A DNA stretch of 22,141 bases, from positions 1 through 22,141 of IMG/VR virus record IMGVR_UViG_3300033144_004970; one strand, written 5' to 3'. Positions within the stretch are counted from its first letter, which is position 1; each line of letters starts with the position of its first letter. Made by a program: the position numbers and the translations under genes. Below, in pieces: positions 572-20,625 of the stretch. The notes beneath the pieces are model-generated. The model was not told the origin of the DNA. It did not search any database and was given only the letters and a program-made list of their open reading frames with translations. The DNA is from a virus.

Positions 572-3118
572 TTACACCAGAAAATCGAAAGCGAGATAAA
601 GCTTTTCGCCTTCAGTAGAATATGATCGAACTAACTCGATTACTCGGGCCCTTGTATCCTGTCCGTGCATAACGCATTGAACTATGTCGCCCATGAAGAA
701 GTCTTCGTTATACACAAAGGTCCCTCGAGCCACAAAGTCCCCTTCGAAAATTCCGAACGGGGTTCCTTCTTTTATTACTGTTTCGCCACGGGTTTGAATA
801 ATAGCTAGAATCTCCGAATCTGTCAGATCATCGCCACCGTCTCCGTCTGAATCTCTGTCTACCGTAGTGTTCAAAGAACCCTCGAATCTATTTATCCCCG
901 TTGGCTCGGCGCCATTCCAGACAAAAGTTTGATCGTGAACATCATCCCCAGTAACTACGTATGTTACATTCACTTTATCCAATTCAGATGAGTAGAATGA
1001 ACTATCCAAAACATTGTCAAGATCGTGTGAAAAAGCCACCCACGCATTTTCTATTTGACCGATAGATCTATCTTCGCCCTCATACATATAGAAATATAAG
1101 TCTAAATTATCAAAATCAAGGATGACTTTAAAACCAAAATCCACTCTTTTACAAACGGCTTCAACAACCGAATAGATATCTTGTATGTCAAACTGTTCCT
1201 CAATCGATGTCGGTGATAACATGGCAGGAGGCCACGTTTCAACCGTATCAAAAAGAGCGATCTTTCTATCCGCATCTGCTGGATTCCGTACATGATTATT
1301 GATAAGGGCGTACACTAAGAGCTCTGACCCCTGATTCCAAGTGACAGGGTTCAACAGAACTCGTCTCTCGAATATGCTTTCCGCAGATCGACCGTTGACT
1401 AACAAGCTAGTTTTATCGGTTGTGGTTTCTGGTTTTATCTCTTCGATAATCATAATCTTATCGGAGTTAGTAATATATAGGAAGTTCCCGAAGGTTATTA
1501 ATTGGTGACTACTCGCGAGAGGGTCGGCTAGATAACTTATCGGCAACTCCAATTCGAAATCGCCGAGTTCGTTATATCGTTCCGCCCAATTCAGAGAATA
1601 ATAGTCGTCTATTGCTCCTACCGGCTCAAAGGCCTCGTTATAAACATAGACTATCGGTCTCTCGACCCCGGTATCAACAACGATTGCCGGGGGTGGCATC
1701 TCAATTATATCTTCATATCGCCGACCATGGCCATAGTTGTATATCCAAGAAAACTCCTCATCGGTTAAGTAACGACCCATGTAGATAAAGAGATTGTCCA
1801 TTTTTCCAGCGTAGAAATTTGTTAAATCTCCCCACGACCCGACAAAGAACATCGTGTCCGTCTCATTTATGGCCGTCGGACCTGCCACAGAGTTATAAAC
1901 ACCATTGACACCCACTCTAATCGCATTAGTAGTTGCGTTATAGGTGGCGGTAATAAAGTACCATGTACCATTGGTTAAGTTGCCGAAGTTTGTTGCGTCT
2001 GCAATATAGTTACTTGACCCGTCGTTTACTGCAAAACGAGCCTTGTTGTTTGCTATTTGAAGAATCCATTCGGCATCGCCCCCGGCATCACTCCATCTCC
2101 CAAGTACTTGGTTGAATAGCTCAACCTTGCCGGGCCGCATCCAAACACCCAGAGAAAAATGTTCATCACCTGGACTAAGCCAACCCAAGTTATCGATACT
2201 GCGTAAGTAATCGCTATCACCCGAAAAGAAGTCTGCGTAATTCGGGATAATTGAGTGTCTTTGTTGCACTGATCCAGCCTGGACCCCATTGAAGTCGAAC
2301 AGAGTTAATACCCCTGAATCCGGATCGGAATTTAGACGATTTTCACCAGCGTCCTCGTCCATTTTCCACCACGCTCGTAATGCGAAGTCTCCAGGATTGG
2401 TTCCTACTGCCGCCGGTGCGACAAGCTCCGAATATGTTCGACCAGAACTACCTCCCCATAACCACATGCGTTCGGAAGAAGTAAGAATTCTTTTATATAC
2501 GAAACACTCATCGATCAAACCGTCAAAGAATCTATTCGTACCACCATGCCTGCCACCGATAGCGAAATCGTGTGCACCGTCAAATACACCACCAAAGTGC
2601 GCTTTTGGAACGGGGGGAGCATTATTGACCTGGATGAATATTTGGTTTGTGGCTGCGTTATGCCAAGCAATAATAAAGTACCAAGTATTAACTGCAGCAA
2701 TAACCCCGCTACTGACAGTGGTAACGGTACTCGAACCATCTGCTGAAACGGAAAAGTGAATTTCTGGTTTGGAGCCGCTAATACTTATATAATATTCTCT
2801 AGTTAAGGTTGTCGCTTTACCAATTAGCCGATGTTGATTAATTGGGAACTGGTTGAGTGATAATGGTTTAAACCAACCCCCAATAGTGAAATCGATATCA
2901 CCCATACTTAAGTCGGCATTATCCGTCCTGGTTAAATATCTGCCCTCGTTTCCTGGATTGTTGGCCCACGCGGCGTTGTCCTGCTTTCCATCCGGGTCAA
3001 ACGATATCGAGCCGTTGGCGGTCAGATGGTTACCTGAAAAGCTGTCATTACGTTGGCCGCTTTCCTCGTCAAGAGTCCACCAGGCAACAAGATTTGTTTT
3101 TAGGGGATTGGTGGACAT
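572..3118 (-). CDS. Baseplate hub/tail protein (ReqiPepy6 Gp37-like) with two N-terminal LamG-like domains
   Basis: The 848 residues split into two parts. Residues about 8-229 and 242-466 are two concanavalin/LamG-like beta-sandwich domains. Each opens with an AWW strand (LVAWWTLDEESG; LRAWWKMDEDAG), has a W-Y-F-I core strand, and ends in a GR-x-Y-x-E/D motif. Residues about 485-848 match the pattern of the siphovirus ReqiPepy6 Gp37-like tail family: an NWAERYNELGDFELELP segment, a MIIEEI strand, then a LLVNGRSAESIFERR block. These proteins form the hub at the tail tip, below the distal tail protein. LamG folds often bind carbohydrate, so surface attachment is a reasonable inference. Residues 754-769 carry a D-rich loop (DRDSDGDGGDDLTDSE) resembling calcium-binding loops. 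The ATG has a good AAGGAG site and follows the distal tail stop by one base. Confidence 0.85.
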   Translation of the reverse strand: MSTNPLKTNLVAWWTLDEESGQRNDSFSGNHLTANGSISFDPDGKQDNAAWANNPGNEGRYLTRTDNADLSMGDIDFTIGGWFKPLSLNQFPINQHRLIGKATTLTREYYISISGSKPEIHFSVSADGSSTVTTVSSGVIAAVNTWYFIIAWHNAATNQIFIQVNNAPPVPKAHFGGVFDGAHDFAIGGRHGGTNRFFDGLIDECFVYKRILTSSERMWLWGGSSGRTYSELVAPAAVGTNPGDFALRAWWKMDEDAGENRLNSDPDSGVLTLFDFNGVQAGSVQQRHSIIPNYADFFSGDSDYLRSIDNLGWLSPGDEHFSLGVWMRPGKVELFNQVLGRWSDAGGDAEWILQIANNKARFAVNDGSSNYIADATNFGNLTNGTWYFITATYNATTNAIRVGVNGVYNSVAGPTAINETDTMFFVGSWGDLTNFYAGKMDNLFIYMGRYLTDEEFSWIYNYGHGRRYEDIIEMPPPAIVVDTGVERPIVYVYNEAFEPVGAIDDYYSLNWAERYNELGDFELELPISYLADPLASSHQLITFGNFLYITNSDKIMIIEEIKPETTTDKTSLLVNGRSAESIFERRVLLNPVTWNQGSELLVYALINNHVRNPADADRKIALFDTVETWPPAMLSPTSIEEQFDIQDIYSVVEAVCKRVDFGFKVILDFDNLDLYFYMYEGEDRSIGQIENAWVAFSHDLDNVLDSSFYSSELDKVNVTYVVTGDDVHDQTFVWNGAEPTGINRFEGSLNTTVDRDSDGDGGDDLTDSEILAIIQTRGETVIKEGTPFGIFEGDFVARGTFVYNEDFFMGDIVQCVMHGQDTRARVIELVRSYSTEGEKLYLAFDFLV

Positions 3119-3119
3119 A

Positions 3120-4619
3120 TTAAACTCCTTGGAATTTCGTACTGAAGGTCATTTTTGTTTCCACTACACCGGCAGTTTCTGCATAGGTTCTTCCGTTACC
3201 AATATTACGCAGCCAGGTAAAATTTGCACCGGTAAGAAGACCATCGTAAAACATTATAGATTGTAGTCGACCATCGAACTCATCGCCACTAGATATTCCA
3301 CCTATAAAGGTTTTTGAACTACTATAAGCAAGTGGTGGGTCGAGTATAAGTTTAGTTACCGGCGTACCATCGTCTTTTTGCATATAAAAGTAGTCTGCAG
3401 CCACATCGTACCAAAGGTAGTAAATGGCCCAAGTCCCGGCCGTAGCCATAGGAAGGTTACGGGTTAAATCCACACCACCGCTTGCAATATTAAATTGTAA
3501 GTTTCCGTCGCTTCTTGCCCTAAGCCAATAACCATTGTCTCCGGCGGCGTCCACGGTGTGCATTATATAGTTGTAATCAGAAAAAACATCCACATTAGCC
3601 CAAAAAACAATGCTAAAATCTCCTACCGGGCAAAGATCTGGGTCAGGGGCTGAGTTTTCAAAGAGGCTGTCAGTAGTACCTGGAAAATCTCGAGCCGTAG
3701 GATAACGAAAAATGTTAAGTCCTGGACCCGAACCGATGGCGCCGCTGGATCTTATAAGATCCTTTCCGGCATGATGCTCTAAAAGTTTCCCCCCATGCAC
3801 CTCATTACCTGGGTAATAAGCAACCAGGTTGGACGGTCTACTTGAGTCGGGATTAACTGACGCAGCCATTTCGATATTATTATCTCCACGGTGGAGTTGT
3901 ATCCAGTCATCGCCCATACCCAAAGCTGGGAGTAGGCTCGTTTGGATTCCAAAAAATGTCTCGAATATGATCGATTTTTGGCCAATACGAGTGTCTATGT
4001 ATAACTTGTCGCCAATGAGAGCGGGACCAACAGAAGAAAGATCTATGTATAGGGCTTGACCCCCATTATCATTGGTTATATAAACGTTACTTACGGTTCC
4101 ACCAAAAGTAAGACTCATATAAACACCGGTAGAAACGTCTCCATTATAGGGAATATTTTTCTCAGTATTCATTGGGAGTGATACTTCGTCTGACAGTAAG
4201 TCTAAGAACCATGGATTTGCACAATATAGTCCAATGACCGCGTTCTCTACCTTGGCGAATTGATTGAATTCGTTCGTTTCAACTATGGCCTCCGTATAAA
4301 CATCCTTCGCGTCAGTGGTTATACCTAAGACAATCGTTCCTTTTATTGGGAAATAGTCATATATCAACTGTTTCGCTGTCTCTTCGGCATCTCCTGTCGC
4401 TGTTACTGCTAAAGTTAAGATTATATGTCTCGCATCTGTCCTGACAAAAGTACCCCGCATGCCGTCATAACCAGGTCCCGCCGTACCAGTAACGGTACCT
4501 TTAGGGGGACCCAGTCCGGACATATTAAAAACGAGGAGCCCGTGATCTTCTTCCGAGCTCCTCAAATTTAACTCAAGGGTGTTTCCGTCAGGGTTTGTGG
4601 CCCATAACGTTTGTATCAT
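3120..4619 (-). CDS. Distal tail protein (Dit/Sipho_tail type) with C-terminal LamG-like domain
   Basis: The first 250 residues or so have the Dit pattern: an N-terminal strand with NPDGNTLELN, a beta domain ending around VIGLYCANPWFLD, and a second beta-sandwich with GDNNIEMAA. Dit rings join the last tail tube ring to the baseplate hub. The position between tape measure and hub fits this role exactly. Residues about 262-480 form an extra LamG-like domain (LVAYYPGNE at its start, GDFSIVFWANV, IGNGRTYAE at its end) closely related in layout to the two such domains in the neighbouring hub gene. This makes the protein longer (499 residues) than a minimal Dit of about 250. The ATG overlaps the tape measure stop as ATGA, so translation is probably coupled. 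Confidence 0.85.
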   Translation of the reverse strand: MIQTLWATNPDGNTLELNLRSSEEDHGLLVFNMSGLGPPKGTVTGTAGPGYDGMRGTFVRTDARHIILTLAVTATGDAEETAKQLIYDYFPIKGTIVLGITTDAKDVYTEAIVETNEFNQFAKVENAVIGLYCANPWFLDLLSDEVSLPMNTEKNIPYNGDVSTGVYMSLTFGGTVSNVYITNDNGGQALYIDLSSVGPALIGDKLYIDTRIGQKSIIFETFFGIQTSLLPALGMGDDWIQLHRGDNNIEMAASVNPDSSRPSNLVAYYPGNEVHGGKLLEHHAGKDLIRSSGAIGSGPGLNIFRYPTARDFPGTTDSLFENSAPDPDLCPVGDFSIVFWANVDVFSDYNYIMHTVDAAGDNGYWLRARSDGNLQFNIASGGVDLTRNLPMATAGTWAIYYLWYDVAADYFYMQKDDGTPVTKLILDPPLAYSSSKTFIGGISSGDEFDGRLQSIMFYDGLLTGANFTWLRNIGNGRTYAETAGVVETKMTFSTKFQGV

Positions 4620-11917: not shown

Positions 11918-13084
11918 CTATGCAGTCTTAGCTGTGATTAGCTGGACAGCAATAGCGCTCTTCGGGGAAACCAGGGCGCCAGAAATACGCGTCTCAATCA
12001 GGTATTCGAGTTTGTTGAAGTTCAAGTCGAAATCCTCAAAGAAGGTAGTTTCTCCGCCTTTATCGGCGCCTACAACGTAGTCTTGTAGGTTGACTATGAT
12101 GCCCAATGTGGCGATATCATAGGTGCCTGCGGGAATAGCAGCGCCACCCTGATCCAAACCACTCGGGTCAACAACACCGGTGTCTTCCAAGCCAGCGATG
12201 ACCGGAACCTCGATAATCTTGCTAACACGCATAGCAGCAGCCAGAGAGGCGACACTATCGTGAATTCGACGATTGGTCGTATCTCGAACTTGCAGCATCA
12301 GGCTTACCAGAGCGGGATCGCAATACAGAGTTGGCGAACCGGAACCTTGGTAATAGGACATTGCGAAGGAAATATGATCGACGAAAGATAGAACCTGAGC
12401 ATCGGTGGCGGCAGACCAGTCGAATAGGGAGCCGGCGTCATTGTGCTGGGCTTTGTGGGTGTAAACGTCGGAGTCGTTGTAAATCGGGCGGACGTTTGTT
12501 TCGACGATTTTGTCGTCATCTACGCCAGAGCGACCATCGCCGATGAGAATGGCCCTCGCCAATTCCTCATCAAGCATCATGCGCATTTCGGCCTTCAACC
12601 ACACCACGACGTTAAAGTCGCTGATGTCGATGACGTCGTCGCGATCTAGTTTCTGGAACTTGTAGATGGTCTGAGGAGTCGTCACCCTTTTCAAAATGGC
12701 GAGCACTTCCTCAACCTTCTGATTGGGCGAAGTCCAGCCTTTGGCCCGAGCGGCATCGGCAGAAATATCTGCGTACCAGCTCTTGATTCGGCCAAACATC
12801 CGGGGTCGGACGCTGTCGAGTACGCCTCGAACCCATCCTTGCTCGCGGTTAGCCCAAAGCTGCGGACCACCCGGCCGAACTGCTCGTGCATCGGGGAACA
12901 TAAAATCAATGTCAGTGATACTGTGACGAATAACGTCGTCGCCATACTCATTGTCTTCAAAAAGGGTCCGCAAAGACGGATGGCTATTCTTCTTGGCTTG
13001 CATCAATAGTTTAGTCACGTTCGCATGGGCGATCATGTCACGATCTCCGGCGGGGGCTTCAAACGGGTTGTAATTTCTTGGCAT
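11918..13084 (-). CDS. Major capsid protein from internal start (predicted second product of the fused gene)
   Basis: Inside the protease-capsid frame, Met340 (ATG 13082-13084) opens the capsid domain with MPRNYNPFEAPAG and would give a 388-residue protein. That is the normal size for this HK97-fold family. A perfect AAGGAG at 13093-13098 stands eight bases upstream, and it is embedded in the Ser-Gln-Gly-Asp codons of the linker. This is at least as good as the ribosome sites of the neighbouring late genes. The inference is that ribosomes start here independently, giving hundreds of capsid subunits while the full-length fusion gives fewer protease-scaffold copies. Whether both forms exist needs protein evidence. 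The domain call itself is firm; the separate product is the inferred part. Confidence 0.7.
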   Translation of the reverse strand: MPRNYNPFEAPAGDRDMIAHANVTKLLMQAKKNSHPSLRTLFEDNEYGDDVIRHSITDIDFMFPDARAVRPGGPQLWANREQGWVRGVLDSVRPRMFGRIKSWYADISADAARAKGWTSPNQKVEEVLAILKRVTTPQTIYKFQKLDRDDVIDISDFNVVVWLKAEMRMMLDEELARAILIGDGRSGVDDDKIVETNVRPIYNDSDVYTHKAQHNDAGSLFDWSAATDAQVLSFVDHISFAMSYYQGSGSPTLYCDPALVSLMLQVRDTTNRRIHDSVASLAAAMRVSKIIEVPVIAGLEDTGVVDPSGLDQGGAAIPAGTYDIATLGIIVNLQDYVVGADKGGETTFFEDFDLNFNKLEYLIETRISGALVSPKSAIAVQLITAKTA

Positions 13085-14101
13085 TTCTTGGTCTCCTTGT
13101 GAGATGGATTCTTCTGGTTCTTCTGGTTCTTCGTCGCCTTCGTCGACTTCGGCTAGGGTTCCGGCCAGATATTCAACAACATCTTTCTGTTTATCGGTGA
13201 GCGTATCAAATACCGCCCCTAGATCCTGGCCGTCTTCGCCGTCTTCACTCGCTGACTCGGGGGATGTCTCTCCGATCAAAGCGCTATGTAGAACAACATC
13301 AACAGCCTCTCTCTGTTCTTCCGTTAAGGTGGCGAGAACATCAGCAATACTTTCATCTGCTTCTGCAACCGCGTGAGCAATAGCCTTATCTTCATCAGAT
13401 TCGGCCTCTTCCTCAGCTTCTTCCTCAACGATTTCTTCTTCGGTCTCTTCGGCTTCTTCCGCTTCTTCAGCTTCTTCAGCTTCTTCAGCTTCTTCGGTCT
13501 CTTCGGTCTCTTCGGTCTCTTCGGTCTCTTCTTCGGTCTCTTCTTCGGTCTCTTCTTCGGTCTCTTCCTCATCTTCAACTTCTAGATCGAGGGGGATTCC
13601 AGAATGAATAATCAAACCGTCATGGACCATCACGTCGGGGTCTAGGGGATCGGTCGAATGACGAACGACTTCGTCAATCCTTGCTCCTGGGTTCATACCT
13701 CTGGGGACAAGGCTAACTTCTCGAATTACGCCTCCTGTTACCGATTTAGTAGCAAAGGTGCCATCTTCAAGCTTGAACCGTCCGACTTCTTCTTGAATTT
13801 CGTTCGCCCAGATAGACAAACCTTCAATTGTTCCGTCGTGTACTAGCTCTTTCGCCTGCTGGCCCTCCCTTGTTTTTAGAAATTTGGCTTTGCCTCTTAC
13901 TCCGAGGGGTGTTCCTTCGTTACGAGACAGGACTATATGACCTAAAATATTAGTAATGTTGCCGTGCATATGTTGCCATACGAGGCTTACTCTTTCGCCT
14001 TCTTGATGGCCAAAAGCATCATCTCTAATAACTCGTCCGTCGTCACACAACACCTCATAGGCTGTGGCAATGCCAGAAAAATCATAAATTTTCTTTGGCA
14101 T
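11918..14101 (-). CDS. Fused HK97-type prohead protease, acidic scaffold-like linker and major capsid protein
   Basis: One 727-residue frame contains three parts. Residues about 1-150 are an S78-like prohead protease: VSLVWQHMHGN gives the candidate catalytic His44 or His46, TIEGLSIWANEI the candidate Ser96, and GVIREVSLVPRG the partner Glu128. Residues about 171-335 are an extremely acidic linker: glutamate runs with T or A (about 172-234), then two related helices starting ATLTEEQ and DTLTDKQ. Residues 340-727 are the HK97-fold major capsid protein (ITDIDFMFPDARAV, TPQTIYKFQKLDRDDVID, DEELARAILIGDGRSGVD). The linker sits where a delta or scaffold domain is expected. The ATG at 14101 has an AAGGAG site. 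There is no stop between protease and capsid, so a full-length fusion can be made, but an internal start (see 11918-13084) probably supplies most capsid subunits. Confidence 0.92.
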   Translation of the reverse strand: MPKKIYDFSGIATAYEVLCDDGRVIRDDAFGHQEGERVSLVWQHMHGNITNILGHIVLSRNEGTPLGVRGKAKFLKTREGQQAKELVHDGTIEGLSIWANEIQEEVGRFKLEDGTFATKSVTGGVIREVSLVPRGMNPGARIDEVVRHSTDPLDPDVMVHDGLIIHSGIPLDLEVEDEEETEEETEEETEEETEETEETEETEEAEEAEEAEEAEEAEETEEEIVEEEAEEEAESDEDKAIAHAVAEADESIADVLATLTEEQREAVDVVLHSALIGETSPESASEDGEDGQDLGAVFDTLTDKQKDVVEYLAGTLAEVDEGDEEPEEPEESISQGDQEMPRNYNPFEAPAGDRDMIAHANVTKLLMQAKKNSHPSLRTLFEDNEYGDDVIRHSITDIDFMFPDARAVRPGGPQLWANREQGWVRGVLDSVRPRMFGRIKSWYADISADAARAKGWTSPNQKVEEVLAILKRVTTPQTIYKFQKLDRDDVIDISDFNVVVWLKAEMRMMLDEELARAILIGDGRSGVDDDKIVETNVRPIYNDSDVYTHKAQHNDAGSLFDWSAATDAQVLSFVDHISFAMSYYQGSGSPTLYCDPALVSLMLQVRDTTNRRIHDSVASLAAAMRVSKIIEVPVIAGLEDTGVVDPSGLDQGGAAIPAGTYDIATLGIIVNLQDYVVGADKGGETTFFEDFDLNFNKLEYLIETRISGALVSPKSAIAVQLITAKTA
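13093..13098 (-). promoter_or_regulatory. Internal Shine-Dalgarno site for the capsid start
   Basis: On the minus strand the bases read AAGGAG, followed by an eight-base spacer and ATG at 13084. The site lies within the coding sequence of the fused gene, in frame, at the exact linker-capsid boundary. It marks where independent capsid translation probably begins. Confidence 0.75.
13440..13568 (-). repeat. Tandem 9- and 12-base microsatellite encoding the acidic linker
   Basis: The plus strand shows tandem units: cttcttcag-type 9-mers, then ggtctcttc 9-mers, then ggtctcttcttc 12-mers. On the coding strand these read GAAGAAGCT and GAAGAGACC, giving Glu-Glu-Ala and Glu-Glu-Thr or Glu-Glu-Glu-Thr. 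All unit lengths are multiples of three, so copy-number slippage changes linker length without breaking the frame. The repeat lies between the protease and the two linker helices. Confidence 0.9.
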
Positions 14102-14109
14102 TTGGTGTA

Positions 14110-15348
14110 TTACTCCTTTTCATTAGGGTCGACTTGTTGTTCTGGTTCTTCACCATCTATCATTTGGTCCGACTTGTTAAGGTTTTTGTTCCTCAACTCG
14201 TCCGCATTTGGATCTTCGCTAGCCACAAGGCCGATTTCTGCTCTAACTTCATTAGAACTCATTATCTCGTTACGAGTTAATTTATCGGCGGCATCCGCTA
14301 TTTCGCTTAGCGGTGCCATTTTGAATAAATCTTGGATCGGCTTTATGGTGTTCCCTTTCTTAATAGCGGGTCTGCTAAAGAAGGACACGGTCATGCCTTC
14401 CGCTAACGCTCTTAGTATGGGGTAGACGGTTTTGTTGTTGTAAGCGAGCATTTCTTCTTGCGTCGCTGTCCCCATGAAGACAGCCGGGGTTAAGCCCAAC
14501 TGACTATGAAGACTCTCCGTCAAACCCTCTACTGTCTGTATCAGAGCATTGGGTACCGGGCGATTTAACTGTGTAATCTTCTCGGCATGCCCAACATAGG
14601 CAATACCATACTTACGATTGTATAGCTGATCCTCGAGTTCTTCTAATCTTCGTCTAGCCTCATTCTTCTTTCGAGTGGTGCTAGCAGTATAGCTCATTTG
14701 AACAATCAGATCCAATTGCGCACTATACAGACGACTGTCTGCAATGTCTAGTAACGCTAACTTGTCAATCAAACGTTTCATCGTGCTGTTGCTTTCATTC
14801 ATAACTGCATATAGCGGGTTGTAAATGATTGCCACATAAGATTTCGGCACAATGATGGACGTTCTCCTTCCAGCTAATTCATTATAGACCTCTACCTTAA
14901 CGCTGTAATTGAACCACTCGGACACAACACCGACCCGCATAGAGAGTATGTCATAATTACCGGTGCTTGGATGGGCACTCGTTTCTGTTGGAAACAAAAC
15001 CGCGTGTCCGCCATCAAGCATAGTCATTACAGCATCCTGAATGAAGGCTGTTCCCGTCTGATCGATGTTGGCTGCTAAAGCAAGTCTGTCATTAAGTTCG
15101 CTTTGTTTGATCGAGAGGAATTTCCCCTTCTGATCAACTTTAGCATGCCTAAGTGGAACATTGGCAGCGTCTATAGCTATTCGTGTCTGTATTGGTGCCA
15201 ATACGCTCGATGTCGAATCGTATGACATACGATGACTACTCGGCACTGCCGGAACGTAACTAGTGATCATTTCGTCGTTTTCGATACGAAATGGTGTGCC
15301 GCGAAGAACCTTGTATGCCGATCGTGCTCTGTTAAATAAACTTGGCAT
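14110..15348 (-). CDS. Portal protein
   Basis: The 412-residue protein matches the HK97/SPP1-type portal pattern of Gram-positive siphoviruses. It has an N-terminal wing region (TRIAIDAANVPLRHAKVD), a mid-section with a GGHAVLFP strand and KSYVAIIYNPLYAVMNES, a long helical stem (MKRLIDKLALLDIADSRL, then ARRRLEELEDQLYNRKYGI), and a crown region with LHSQLGLTPAVFMGTATQEE. The C terminus is polar and acidic. Twelve subunits form the vertex ring through which DNA is packaged and ejected. It lies directly upstream of the protease-capsid gene, as usual. The ATG has a strong AAGGAGG site. The terminase genes normally found just before the portal are not in that place here; five other gene products intervene before the unidentified fragment at the window edge. 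Confidence 0.88.
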   Translation of the reverse strand: MPSLFNRARSAYKVLRGTPFRIENDEMITSYVPAVPSSHRMSYDSTSSVLAPIQTRIAIDAANVPLRHAKVDQKGKFLSIKQSELNDRLALAANIDQTGTAFIQDAVMTMLDGGHAVLFPTETSAHPSTGNYDILSMRVGVVSEWFNYSVKVEVYNELAGRRTSIIVPKSYVAIIYNPLYAVMNESNSTMKRLIDKLALLDIADSRLYSAQLDLIVQMSYTASTTRKKNEARRRLEELEDQLYNRKYGIAYVGHAEKITQLNRPVPNALIQTVEGLTESLHSQLGLTPAVFMGTATQEEMLAYNNKTVYPILRALAEGMTVSFFSRPAIKKGNTIKPIQDLFKMAPLSEIADAADKLTRNEIMSSNEVRAEIGLVASEDPNADELRNKNLNKSDQMIDGEEPEQQVDPNEKE

Positions 15349-16101: not shown

Positions 16102-19100
16102 CTAAACCTCCGTGATTACATTAATTTCAATATCTGGGTATACGGCGTTAACTTCTGCCGTAGGATACACTGCACTAACTTCTGCTGTAGGATATACTGC
16201 GCTAAATAGGATGTCTGGTGGATACCGGACCATATATAGATCTATTCCTGGAACGCCCAGAACAGGCGTTGTTAGTATTCCTTGTGCAGTCACGATATGT
16301 ATCTGACCGACCGTTGGAACACCAAGAATTGGCGAGACCAAAATATCCGAACTACTTAAGACATGAATCTGTCCTATTCCAGGGGTATCTATTTGAGGCG
16401 TAGTCAATATCCCGCTAGCAGTTAACGCATGAATACTACCTAAATCAGGCACATCAAGAACCGGTGTCGTTGAGATCCCGCTCGCAGTTAGCGATTGTAT
16501 CTGTCCTAACGCTGGCGTACCAAGAACCGGGGTGGCCGTAATTTCAGTAGCTTCTAAGTGATGAATGATTGTTGATATGGGCGTATCTACTATTGGAGTT
16601 GTAGATATATCCGTGGCCGATAACGCATGTATCTGAGCAAGCTCAGGCGTATCTAAAACCGGGGTGGTCGTAATTTCAGTAGCATCTAAGTGACAGATGA
16701 CTGTTAATGTCGACGTATCTAAAACCGGTGTGGCCGTAATTTCAGTAACATCTAAGTGATAGATGATTGTTAATGTCGACGTATCTACTATTGGCGTTGT
16801 AGATATGTCAGTGGCAGATAGCACGTGTATCTGACCAAGCTCGGGAGTATCTAAAACCGGGGTGGTTGTGATATCTTGAGCGGCTAGATTGTCTTGTCCT
16901 TCCGTGCTTACTGTCGGTGTGTCTAATACGGGATTAGCGGTGATACCGGCCGCATCTAGGGCATGTTCTTGCCCCACCGTCGGTGTATCTACCACTGGAT
17001 TAGTGGTAATATCAACCGCACCTAAGACGTGTGTTTCTTCCAAAGTCGGTGTATCTAATACCGGATTAGCGGTAATATCGACACTGTCTAAGTCGTGTTC
17101 TTGGCCTATAGGCGGCGTGTCTAGGACTGGATTAGCCGTTATCTCTGTGACCGCTAAGACGTGTTCTTGGCCTATTACAGGCGTGTCTAAGACCGGCGTA
17201 GTCGAAATATCGTCTGCTGTAAGGGCGTGCTCTTGAGCCAACGCAGGCGTATCTAAGACTGGATTAGCCGTTATCTCTGTAGCCGCTAAGACGTGTTCTT
17301 GGCCTATTACAGGCGTGTCTAGGACTGGCGTGGTCGAAATATCGTCTGCTGTAAGGACGTGAGCGCCAACAGCTAGTATCGGCGTGTCCAAGACTGGCGT
17401 GACCGAAATATCGACTGCGGTAAGATCGTGTTCTTGAGCCAACGCAGGTGTGTCTAGGACTGGCGTGGTCGAAATATCGACTGCTGTGAAGGCGTGTTCT
17501 TGGCCTATTATAGGCGTGTCTAAGACTGGATTGGCCGTTATCCCTATGGCTACTAGGTTGCTTTCCCCAATGACCTCTTCTAACGCCGGTGTATCAAGTA
17601 CTGGATTAGCCGTAATATCAACCGCGTCTAAGCCGTGCTCTTGCCCTATGGGTGGCGTATCAAGTACTGGATTAACAGTAATATCAACCGCGTCTAAGCC
17701 GTGCTCTTGCCCTATAGGCGGCGTTCCTACTACTGGATTGACTGTGATACCATTGGCTATAAGCGCGTCCGGAAAGCCAATAGTGACGTAATCAATATCC
17801 AAAGATATACTATCATCATAAACGGACACCGCGGCAGAGGCATTATTACCCGTATCTAAGTCGTTATGTAAACGTATTAGAATCTGAGTATCGCTAGCCT
17901 CATACGCAGCCGCAATGGCTTGATAGGACTGATTACCTATTGATGTCCAGCTTCCTTCTACGCCAGTGGGCGATCTTCCTGCCCACAAAGTAGCTATAAG
18001 AATTGTTCCGGTGGAATCGTATATATCATATGGGCCAATAGTACAAGAATCTACTACGTTCCATTCCGTACATCGATTGTCGGCATCATTTATTCTTATC
18101 TGCGTTAGAATATCCCCAGGGGTTATGCCCAGATCCTCCCAAGTTCCAGACCACTCCCAATACGATACTGCTGCATTTTTCCTTCCGGAAAGTCGTGATT
18201 TTAACGAACCAAGAGGATTGCCGTACCCTGAATCATAAGACAGAACCACATCCCCATTTTCCGGATATCCCACAAACCCTTCGGCTGTGGTTAGGAATGG
18301 AAAGGTTACATTAAGAGAACCCGGAATCGGCACCCCGGGTGTAGGCTCGTCTAAAATCGGATTAGCGGTAATATCGACGGCATCTAGGGCGTGTATCTGG
18401 CCCAAAGCAGGCGTGCCTAATACTGGATTAGCAGTAATATCCGCACTATCTAGGACGTGTGTCTGACCCACAGATGGTGTATCTAGCGCCGGATTAGCTG
18501 TGATATCGACTACCGTAAGATTGTAAATCTCTGTTAAAACAGTCGTATCTAAGACCGGTGTGGTTGAGATATCGACGGCTATTAGATCAACTATCTGACT
18601 AGCAATCGGTGTGTCTACTGCCGGATTAGAAGTAATATCGACGGCGTCTAAGGCATGTTCTTGGCCTATAGATGGTGTGTCCACTGCTGAATTAGCAGTA
18701 ATATCGACGGCGTCTAAGGCATGTGTCTGCCCTACGGACGGCGTATCTACTACTGGAGTTGTTGTTATGCCTACAGAAGTAAGAACAACTATCTGACTAA
18801 CAATCGGCGTATCTATCACTGGGTTAGTAGTAATATCGACGGCTGTTAGGACGTGTTCTTGGCCTAACGCAGGCGTGTCTAAGACTGAATTAGCCGTTAT
18901 CTCTGTGGCCGCTAAGACGTGTTCTTGGCCTATTACAGGCGTGTCTAAGACCGGTGTGGTTGAAATATCGACTGCTGTTAGCGCGTCTGGCTCTTGTGAG
19001 AAGCACACCGGGGTGCCTAAAACCGGATTAACGGTAATATCGACTGCTGTTAGAGCGTGTTTTTGGCCTAACGCTGGAGTATCTAATACCGGCGTGGTCG

Positions 19101-20625
19101 AAATATCGACTGCTGTAAGGCCGTGTTCTTGGCCTAACGCGGGCGTATCTAAGGTCGGTGTGGTCGAAATATCGACTGCGGTAAGATCGTGTTCTTGGCC
19201 TAACGCGGGCGTATCTAAGGTCGGTGTGGTCGAAATATCGACTGCTATAAGATTGTGAATCTCTGCTAGAACAGGCGTGTCTAAGACTGGTGTGGCCGAA
19301 ATATCGACTGCTGTGAGAACGTGTTTCTGCCCCAAAGCGGGCGCATCAAGCACCGGGTTGGCCGTTATCTCTGTGGGTGTTAGGGCGTGTTCTTGACCTA
19401 TTGCCGGTGTATCAAGAACCGGGTTGGCCGTTATCTCTGTGGCTGTTAGAGCGTGTTCTTGACCTATTGCCGGTGTATCAAGAACCGGGTTGGCCGTTAT
19501 CTCTGTGGCTGTTAGAGCGTGTTCTTGACCTATTGCCGGTGTTCCTAGAACTGGTATAGTCGAAATATCGACCGCGGTTAGGTCATCGATAGGAGTCGTC
19601 AAAACATACTCTTCCCAATAAATGGTGGTGCCCGAGCCCCCCGACTGATAAAGATAGTCAATCGTAAGGGTATTATTTAGATCATTATACGACCAACCAG
19701 CCACTATCCGGACATTCACGCCTGTAGTCAATACGCCTTTATCCGTCCACCCAGAGCCGGAATTTGAAATTAGATGAATATAATCATCGCTATCAATATA
19801 TAAAACATAACGATCCCCTGTGGCATTATCAAGGTAGGGGCTTATTCTAACTGCATCGTAAACTGTGTCTATCTCGTTCTCTTCAATATTATCAGTATTC
19901 TCAACGCGATAACGATAGGGTGTGCCCGACGTGTTTATGGTAATACCGCGATCGGGCATAAGCGCTGTAGCTGCATCGATTGTTTCCGTCGCCCAGCTCG
20001 TTCCATTATAGGTGTTGTAGTACGTATCTTCACTGGCATCCTGATACACACAAATCGCGTTATCTGAACTATCTACAGAGAAAGAAGGACGGTAATAGTT
20101 CGTTGTTTCGCCGTCTGTAACCTGGGCAGGGGTTGACCAAGTTGAGCCATTGTACTCGGATGAGAATATTTGTGAGTAAGGGACGCCCATGTCTTTAATT
20201 GATGATGTCCAGACCACCATAGGATAGCCATCTGATTTTATAGATACGCTTACCCTGGGGCCGACGGAGGCCTTATTTTGTACTCCATCGATCTCTGCCC
20301 ATGTCCCCCATACCGGCGTTCCATCGGGATCAGAAATAGTATTCCAAGATAAACCATATCCAAAGTTGTTACCATTAAGTGCGAAGACGTATACCAAATC
20401 ACTACCGTTGATTGCGGCGGTAGACCACTCCAGATATGCTCCTCCATCATTTGCCCAATCTGTGCGGGCTTGTGCTGGACTGACAAAACTCGGTGATCCA
20501 TCGATGTCTTTATAGAAACGTAGATCCAGGCCATCAGTAATAAACGCACATTTAGTGTCGCCAGACGTCTTGAAAACGGCAGCGCCACGCGCGAGGCTTC
20601 CTGGGTTTCGTATATATACAGACAT
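16102..20625 (-). CDS. Giant repeat protein: propeller-like head, 42 beta repeats, inserted domain; candidate adhesin or fibre
   Basis: The 1507 residues have five parts. Residues 1-347 are beta-rich with propeller-like blade motifs (YNGSTWSTPAQVT and YNGTSWATETID, each after a D-x-x-x-x-x-x-V-Y/W strand). Residues 348-763 hold 19 repeats of about 22 residues, with a core like DISTTPVLDTPALGQEH. Residues 764-953 are a non-repeat beta domain (GSLNVTFPFLTTAEGFVGYP, YWEWSGTWEDLG). Residues 954-1464 hold 23 further repeats. Residues 1465-1507 end in 9-residue repeats (SAVYPTAEV). No signal peptide or membrane segment is visible. The repeats look like a stiff beta rod, so a fibre or surface adhesin is the best inference, yet no homology search was possible. 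The start overlaps the upstream stop (TAATG) with GGTGG nearby. It lies before the portal gene, not after the tail genes, which is odd for a tail fibre. Confidence 0.8.
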   Translation of the reverse strand: MSVYIRNPGSLARGAAVFKTSGDTKCAFITDGLDLRFYKDIDGSPSFVSPAQARTDWANDGGAYLEWSTAAINGSDLVYVFALNGNNFGYGLSWNTISDPDGTPVWGTWAEIDGVQNKASVGPRVSVSIKSDGYPMVVWTSSIKDMGVPYSQIFSSEYNGSTWSTPAQVTDGETTNYYRPSFSVDSSDNAICVYQDASEDTYYNTYNGTSWATETIDAATALMPDRGITINTSGTPYRYRVENTDNIEENEIDTVYDAVRISPYLDNATGDRYVLYIDSDDYIHLISNSGSGWTDKGVLTTGVNVRIVAGWSYNDLNNTLTIDYLYQSGGSGTTIYWEEYVLTTPIDDLTAVDISTIPVLGTPAIGQEHALTATEITANPVLDTPAIGQEHALTATEITANPVLDTPAIGQEHALTPTEITANPVLDAPALGQKHVLTAVDISATPVLDTPVLAEIHNLIAVDISTTPTLDTPALGQEHDLTAVDISTTPTLDTPALGQEHGLTAVDISTTPVLDTPALGQKHALTAVDITVNPVLGTPVCFSQEPDALTAVDISTTPVLDTPVIGQEHVLAATEITANSVLDTPALGQEHVLTAVDITTNPVIDTPIVSQIVVLTSVGITTTPVVDTPSVGQTHALDAVDITANSAVDTPSIGQEHALDAVDITSNPAVDTPIASQIVDLIAVDISTTPVLDTTVLTEIYNLTVVDITANPALDTPSVGQTHVLDSADITANPVLGTPALGQIHALDAVDITANPILDEPTPGVPIPGSLNVTFPFLTTAEGFVGYPENGDVVLSYDSGYGNPLGSLKSRLSGRKNAAVSYWEWSGTWEDLGITPGDILTQIRINDADNRCTEWNVVDSCTIGPYDIYDSTGTILIATLWAGRSPTGVEGSWTSIGNQSYQAIAAAYEASDTQILIRLHNDLDTGNNASAAVSVYDDSISLDIDYVTIGFPDALIANGITVNPVVGTPPIGQEHGLDAVDITVNPVLDTPPIGQEHGLDAVDITANPVLDTPALEEVIGESNLVAIGITANPVLDTPIIGQEHAFTAVDISTTPVLDTPALAQEHDLTAVDISVTPVLDTPILAVGAHVLTADDISTTPVLDTPVIGQEHVLAATEITANPVLDTPALAQEHALTADDISTTPVLDTPVIGQEHVLAVTEITANPVLDTPPIGQEHDLDSVDITANPVLDTPTLEETHVLGAVDITTNPVVDTPTVGQEHALDAAGITANPVLDTPTVSTEGQDNLAAQDITTTPVLDTPELGQIHVLSATDISTTPIVDTSTLTIIYHLDVTEITATPVLDTSTLTVICHLDATEITTTPVLDTPELAQIHALSATDISTTPIVDTPISTIIHHLEATEITATPVLGTPALGQIQSLTASGISTTPVLDVPDLGSIHALTASGILTTPQIDTPGIGQIHVLSSSDILVSPILGVPTVGQIHIVTAQGILTTPVLGVPGIDLYMVRYPPDILFSAVYPTAEVSAVYPTAEVNAVYPDIEINVITEV
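16123..16203 (-). repeat. Three 27-base repeats encoding a 9-residue C-terminal motif
   Basis: Three tandem 27-base units encode SAVYPTAEV, SAVYPTAEV and NAVYPDIEI at residues 1475-1501 of the giant protein, followed by a partial NVITEV. The period (9 residues) is unrelated to the 22-residue repeat, so this is a separate terminal structure, possibly a capping or trimerising beta element. Confidence 0.85.
16234..17766 (-). repeat. Repeat block 2 of the giant protein: 23 units of about 66 bases
   Basis: Residues 954-1464 divide into 23 units, mostly exactly 22 residues, with four of 21, 23, 24 or 25. The invariant core is I-x-x-x-P-x-L-x-x-P. Units near the protein C terminus drift (SLTASGISTTPVLDVPDLGS), while units 7-10 alternate between two sequence types. 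The unit changes occur at linker ends (AVGAH, STEGQD), suggesting loops there. Confidence 0.9.
17767..18336 (-). other. Non-repeat beta domain inserted between the two repeat blocks
   Basis: Residues 764-953 of the giant protein contain no 22-residue repeat. The 190-residue segment has features of a carbohydrate-binding-like or jelly-roll beta domain: GDVVLSYDSGYGNP, YWEWSGTWEDLGITPGD, TLWAGRSPTGVEGSW and ILIRLHNDLDTGNN, then DDSISLDIDYVTI. It is aromatic-rich and is entered and left precisely at repeat boundaries. The ligand is unknown. Confidence 0.6.
18337..19584 (-). repeat. Repeat block 1 of the giant protein: 19 units of about 66 bases
   Basis: Residues 348-763 form 19 units. Seventeen of the first 18 are exactly 22 residues, one is 24 (it contains VCFSQEPD), and the last is cut to 18 where the inserted domain begins. 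Common forms include ATEITANPVLDTPAIGQEH and AVDISTTPTLDTPALGQEH. Confidence 0.92.
19385..19540 (-). repeat. Near-identical tandem 66-base units (recent duplication)
   Basis: The same string gcgtgttcttgacctattgc begins at 19385, 19451 and 19517, exactly 66 bases apart, and the sequence between copies is nearly identical. These encode units 2-4 of block 1, whereas most other units differ at many synonymous sites. The pattern fits recent unit duplication or gene conversion. Confidence 0.9.

Follow-up and report, generated by a model that had tools for sequence, protein, structure and literature searches.

The window analysed here, a 22 kb virus record (22,141 nt) that is apparently a fragment, carries its structural genes all on the minus strand: a portal gene (14110–15348), a protease–capsid fusion, the gene for a DUF7253 protein, a possible tail terminator gene, the genes for the major tail protein and the tape measure protein, and tail genes. 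The original prediction that the prohead protease, an acidic linker and the major capsid protein are encoded in one frame without a stop was right in its coordinates, the strand being minus: the frame comprises 727 codons and runs from an ATG at 14101 to a stop at 11918 (Table 1). The profile of PHROG 3270 ('major capsid and protease fusion protein') matches it in two stretches, over the protease and over the capsid, and 244 phage records match the ORF, most of them being the same fusion. All the features of the PHROG 3270 family were found, namely the profile match, an N-terminal S78 protease, a C-terminal HK97-fold capsid and an uninterrupted frame. The family includes fusions of the Arthrobacter AM and AU, Gordonia DJ, Streptomyces BI, Rhodococcus CC and Microbacterium EL phages and of Lactococcus phage 1706. 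These share with the window the fusion itself, similarity over the full length and a comparable layout in which the portal gene and the fusion are followed by two small genes and that for the major tail protein, although the acidic repeat of the window is longer than in most of them.

Table 1. Features of the protease–capsid fusion locus (positions are those of the window)
Feature	Position	Strand	Basis
Protease–scaffold–capsid fusion ORF, 727 aa	11918..14101	minus	open frame; PHROG 3270, E = 1e-160
Shine-Dalgarno of the fusion ORF	14113..14118	minus	AAGGAG, 11 nt before ATG 14101
S78-type prohead protease domain, residues 1–145	13667..14101	minus	Pfam Peptidase_S78; high-confidence AlphaFold domain
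Acidic low-complexity repeat, residues 177–249	13355..13573	minus	predicted disordered (AlphaFold)
First helical hairpin, scaffold-like, residues 252–276	13274..13348	minus	AlphaFold helices 252–257 and 261–276
Second helical hairpin, residues 294–318	13148..13222	minus	AlphaFold helices 294–298 and 303–318
Internal Shine-Dalgarno, AAGGAG	13093..13098	minus	sequence; conserved in relatives
Putative internal start codon, ATG (Met340)	13082..13084	minus	sequence; conserved in relatives
Predicted nested capsid product, 388 aa, HK97 fold	11918..13084	minus	AlphaFold and Foldseek

Peptidase_S78 (PF04586) was matched at residues 28–148 with a score of 21 bits, which is exactly Pfam's curated cut-off, and His44 and Ser96 of the protease domain are invariant among 38 sequences. 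The acidic tract that follows is a Glu/Thr/Ala repeat. The copy number of its TEEES unit differs between two close relatives (L002 and L003), which amounts to an in-frame change of length. Runs of acidic residues in the linker might also slow or destabilise ribosomes and so cut the yield of the fusion. The first helical hairpin carries the family motif V.DVF.TLTEEQK.VV, and the second hairpin is a repeat of it. In the AlphaFold model (38 sequences), disorder at residues 321–354 is followed by the capsid domain from about residue 359, and Met340 falls within this disordered joint between the hairpins and the capsid fold. Both hairpins thus lie upstream of Met340, while a helical arm of about 60 residues stays downstream of it, before the core fold.

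Folded alone, the product beginning at Met340 matched many HK97-type capsids in Foldseek, including that of HK97 itself (best E 6.6e-9, probability 1.00). The pLDDT of this model is moderate (75) and the Foldseek TM-scores are 0.31–0.59, values that plausibly fit a subunit with flexible arms. Phage_capsid (PF05065) was detected in 37 of 39 relatives at E values of up to 1, and searches of the PDB sequences with the full protein and with the capsid profile returned low-complexity or chance matches only. The roughly 60 residues preceding the core fold might be cleaved from the Met340 product. The free product may thus be trimmed further, and finding the mature N terminus elsewhere than at Met340 would not be enough to refute the internal start.

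Around the internal site the minus strand reads ACAAGGAGACCAAGAAATGCCAAGAAAT, the A of the ATG being position 13084; AAGGAG, 8 nt and the ATG follow each other in frame, just as had been proposed; the minus strand at 13084 reads ACAAGGAGACCAAGAAATG, in which the ATG encodes Met340. Six places in the window carry the pattern AAGGAG-N5–11-ATG (seven rows, of which two overlap), against 1.43 expected by chance. The remaining five places all coincide with predicted gene starts, so that 13084, too, looks like a gene start. With a Shine-Dalgarno energy of −8.3, it resembles the gene starts of the window itself and is the strongest internal start-like codon of the fusion ORF, the next being at −6.6. 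Moreover, the 71 nt around 13084 are almost unstructured (−2.7 kcal/mol vs −10.4 at the ORF's own start). Given that about 13% of synonymous recodings give an equal or stronger site, however, the signal in the window by itself is suggestive only.

Much stronger evidence came from conservation of the internal Shine-Dalgarno and ATG in relatives, the check that the original prediction had set. Relatives were drawn from IMG/VR, GTDB genomes and GenBank phages; removal of duplicates left 188 sequences, of which 121 are below 70% identity to one another. In all 121, a start codon lies in the Met340 column or no more than a few codons from it (103 ATG, 16 GTG and 2 TTG), and the Shine-Dalgarno energy at this site is −6 or lower in 113 and −4 or lower in 120, although these counts are not fully independent because all relatives share ancestry. 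An unbiased scan of all alignment columns ranked Met340 first for a start combined with a Shine-Dalgarno (108/121), with the ORF's own start second (97/121). In an earlier set of 42 sequences, 83% of the sites had an energy of −8.3 or lower, compared with 2.4% of 654 other in-frame ATGs.

Further protease–capsid fusions, divergent in sequence and mostly belonging to other PHROGs, were also examined. In the PAJU2 family (PHROG 617), all 17 representatives have an ATG at the protease–capsid junction or no more than two codons away, and in 10 of them the Shine-Dalgarno energy at the exact column is −6 or lower; PAJU2 itself has a strong internal start. Ten further loci of this family are split (L155, L160, L162, L175, L181, L184, L185, L196, L197 and L199), and there the capsid gene has its own Shine-Dalgarno and begins with the Met that corresponds to the internal one; at L160 the TAG that ends the protease gene overlaps the TAGGAGG serving as Shine-Dalgarno for the capsid. 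The Microbacterium EE phages (PHROG 2263) have the ATG in 9 of 9 cases, with a modest Shine-Dalgarno at variable spacing. RRH1, also of PHROG 2263, has GGAAGG and an ATG at residue 274, and Nocturne116/Q54, distant members of PHROG 3270, have a junction ATG whose site is weak. The start precedes a delta-like segment in PAJU2, EE, RRH1 and Nocturne116/Q54, whereas it comes after the hairpins in the family of the window. BK5-T was excluded as its genes are separate, and the protease and capsid genes of D3 are likewise separate. The Rhodococcus phage RRH1 protein (L314, 4439–6424) carries an extra hydrophobic N-terminal segment before the protease, with residues 8–83 matching PHROG 4316; this might be a holin-like part or reflect a mis-set start.

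The coexistence of fused and split genes among the relatives of PAJU2 means that a fusion can arise simply, and it could be argued that the internal start makes the functional capsid while the fusion came about through the chance loss of a stop codon and has no role of its own. The window's family makes this very unlikely. Among 201 loci, protease and capsid are in one frame in 192 and a break was found in none, the other nine being cut by contig ends so that the capsid part alone is visible; split protease and capsid genes were sought in this family and none was seen among the 192 assessable loci. The linker meanwhile takes 59 different lengths between 87 and 268 residues, which, together with the difference in repeat number between L002 and L003, indicates that the frame has survived many insertions and deletions. 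With such slippage-prone repeats in the linker, an unimportant frame would have been broken. Given that it never is, both the internal start and the fusion appear, from sequence comparison, to be under selection.

Selection on the site was also visible at the nucleotide level. Of the 17 non-ATG codons in the Met340 column, 13 are GTG or TTG, and in the remaining four cases the start codon is displaced by a few positions. By contrast, only 7 of 149 replacements in five other conserved-Met columns (residue 1 excluded) are GTG or TTG. The joint probability of the observed codons under each gene's codon usage is about 1e-11, a figure that ignores relatedness; tree parsimony gave about 15–17 start-codon changes, with up to two of the 17 being alignment gaps. 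In the Shine-Dalgarno region, the residue before the first Gly ([EKQ]-Gly) has A as its third base in 94 of 98 sequences (44 expected), and the first Gly itself is encoded by GGA in 76 of 98 (20 expected). These swaps to GTG and TTG and the fixed GAA and GGA codons point to a constraint on the nucleotides and not on the protein alone. Codon fixation was used in place of duplex energy because the latter test fails in GC-rich relatives: compared with a synonymous-codon null, the Shine-Dalgarno duplex is stronger in GC-poor relatives (z = −8.8) but not in GC-rich ones, where the deviation is in the opposite direction (z = +2.7), probably because GAG-GGC is itself Shine-Dalgarno-like and would pair well too. 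Residue 687, with a Shine-Dalgarno-like signal in about half of the relatives, was rejected as a start, as the non-Met codons in its column (TTC, CTG, CTC and others) are not start codons; a start there would leave 41 residues only.

This constraint bears on a different scheme, in which only the full-length polyprotein is made, giving protease and capsid at 1:1, autocatalytic cleavage frees the capsid, and the internal start is incidental to the coding sequence. PMC8306868 cites a proposal of such a cleaved polyprotein for the PAJU2 fusion, and the disordered joint would be a good region for cleavage. As an account of the window's family by itself, however, we regard it as highly improbable: it leaves the GTG and TTG swaps, the fixed codons and the peak of the column scan unexplained, and in the PAJU2 family as well it must contend with the strong internal start of PAJU2 and with split relatives that begin their capsid gene there. 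That Glu-Gly-Gly...Met is a protein motif for protease cleavage or assembly with an incidental likeness to a ribosome site can practically be set aside, for although the EG/GG and the following N-x-F residues are conserved at the protein level and a Gly-Gly motif mimics a Shine-Dalgarno at residue 687, it is in the 340 column only that Met gives way to Val or Leu through GTG or TTG, loss of the usual codon there moves the start by several codons, and the spacing at Met340 is that of an initiation site.

Taking the conserved start and Shine-Dalgarno together with the codon-level evidence, the two nested in-frame products of the original prediction are well supported, and we put at roughly 84% the probability that this gene specifies two nested, in-frame, C-terminally identical products, a 727-residue fusion and a free 388-residue capsid protein. 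Initiation at 14101 would yield the fusion of protease, acidic linker, helical hairpins and capsid, and initiation at 13084 the free capsid protein; the ideal spacing and open RNA of the internal site lead us to predict that the free capsid outnumbers the fusion. By way of its capsid part the fusion would be built into the shell together with free subunits, so that each procapsid would receive a minority of subunits bearing protease and scaffold-like segments, and the protease and hairpins would thereby be placed inside the shell. Cleavage by the protease within the flexible joint would next remove the protease itself, with the linker being cleared.

Given that a junction start is kept in the sequence-divergent families PHROG 3270, 2263 and 617, it seems fairly probable that nested two-product genes are the rule among the protease–capsid fusions of tailed phages, and that in the window's family the fusion is obligatory, protease and scaffold entering the procapsid solely as N-terminal extensions carried by the minority of its capsid subunits, with translation initiation fixing how many there are.

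Arrangements of this kind have counterparts in well-known viruses. In phage lambda, C and Nu3 are in-frame products with a common C terminus, the longer of which carries the protease, and the shorter starts from an internal Shine-Dalgarno and start codon; Nu3 is a scaffold and the capsid is encoded by a separate gene. The window has a same-frame internal Shine-Dalgarno and a probable start codon as in C/Nu3, but its short product is predicted by Foldseek to be an HK97-fold capsid rather than a scaffold. As a consequence, we consider that it would work like C/Nu3 without classing it as a member of that system. In the herpesvirus UL26/UL26.5 pair, the protease enters the shell as the N-terminal extension of a commoner in-frame short product, UL26.5, which is a scaffold and comes from its own transcript. 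The likeness to the window, a protease as the N-terminal extension of a short product that is predicted to be more abundant, is drawn by analogy. HK97 gp4 and gp5 share with the window the S78 protease and the HK97-fold capsid, but are encoded by separate genes, and each subunit of the HK97 capsid has a scaffold (delta) domain of its own. The PAJU2-type fusion shares the conserved internal start at the protease–capsid junction, but differs in that this start lies before the delta-like domain and in that split forms occur.

The protease–capsid fusion itself has already been described (PMC5513430; PMC7302621; PMC5679793), in each case as one fused gene, and the passages of these papers that were searched do not mention an internal capsid start. 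Our literature search, which covered few subscription journals, found no report of such a start; the fusion is thus a known annotation and the internal start one for which we found no report. In hundreds of sequenced phages the annotation gives one 'capsid and protease fusion' or just a 'head maturation protease', which implies that protease and coat protein are made in equal amounts. A conserved internal start would resolve this problem of stoichiometry. If it is true, the start of the main coat protein is missing from those annotations. It would also give the virus a testable way to dose its maturation enzyme and scaffold. A simple edit to the internal ATG, or to the Shine-Dalgarno before it, should uncouple assembly from maturation. 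In RefSeq records such as NC_048816 (L087) and NC_070945 (L085), the whole fusion is named 'head maturation protease' only, and the stretches examined have no entry under the name of major capsid protein.

Elsewhere on the minus strand of the window, a gene just upstream of the head genes (16102–20625) encodes a 1507-residue protein that consists mostly of imperfect repeats of the type LTAVDISTTPVLDTPALGQEH and has no match in Pfam or PHROG. The Gp37-like and Dit-like tail proteins (572–3118 and 3120–4619, minus strand) carry Laminin-G/concanavalin-like domains.
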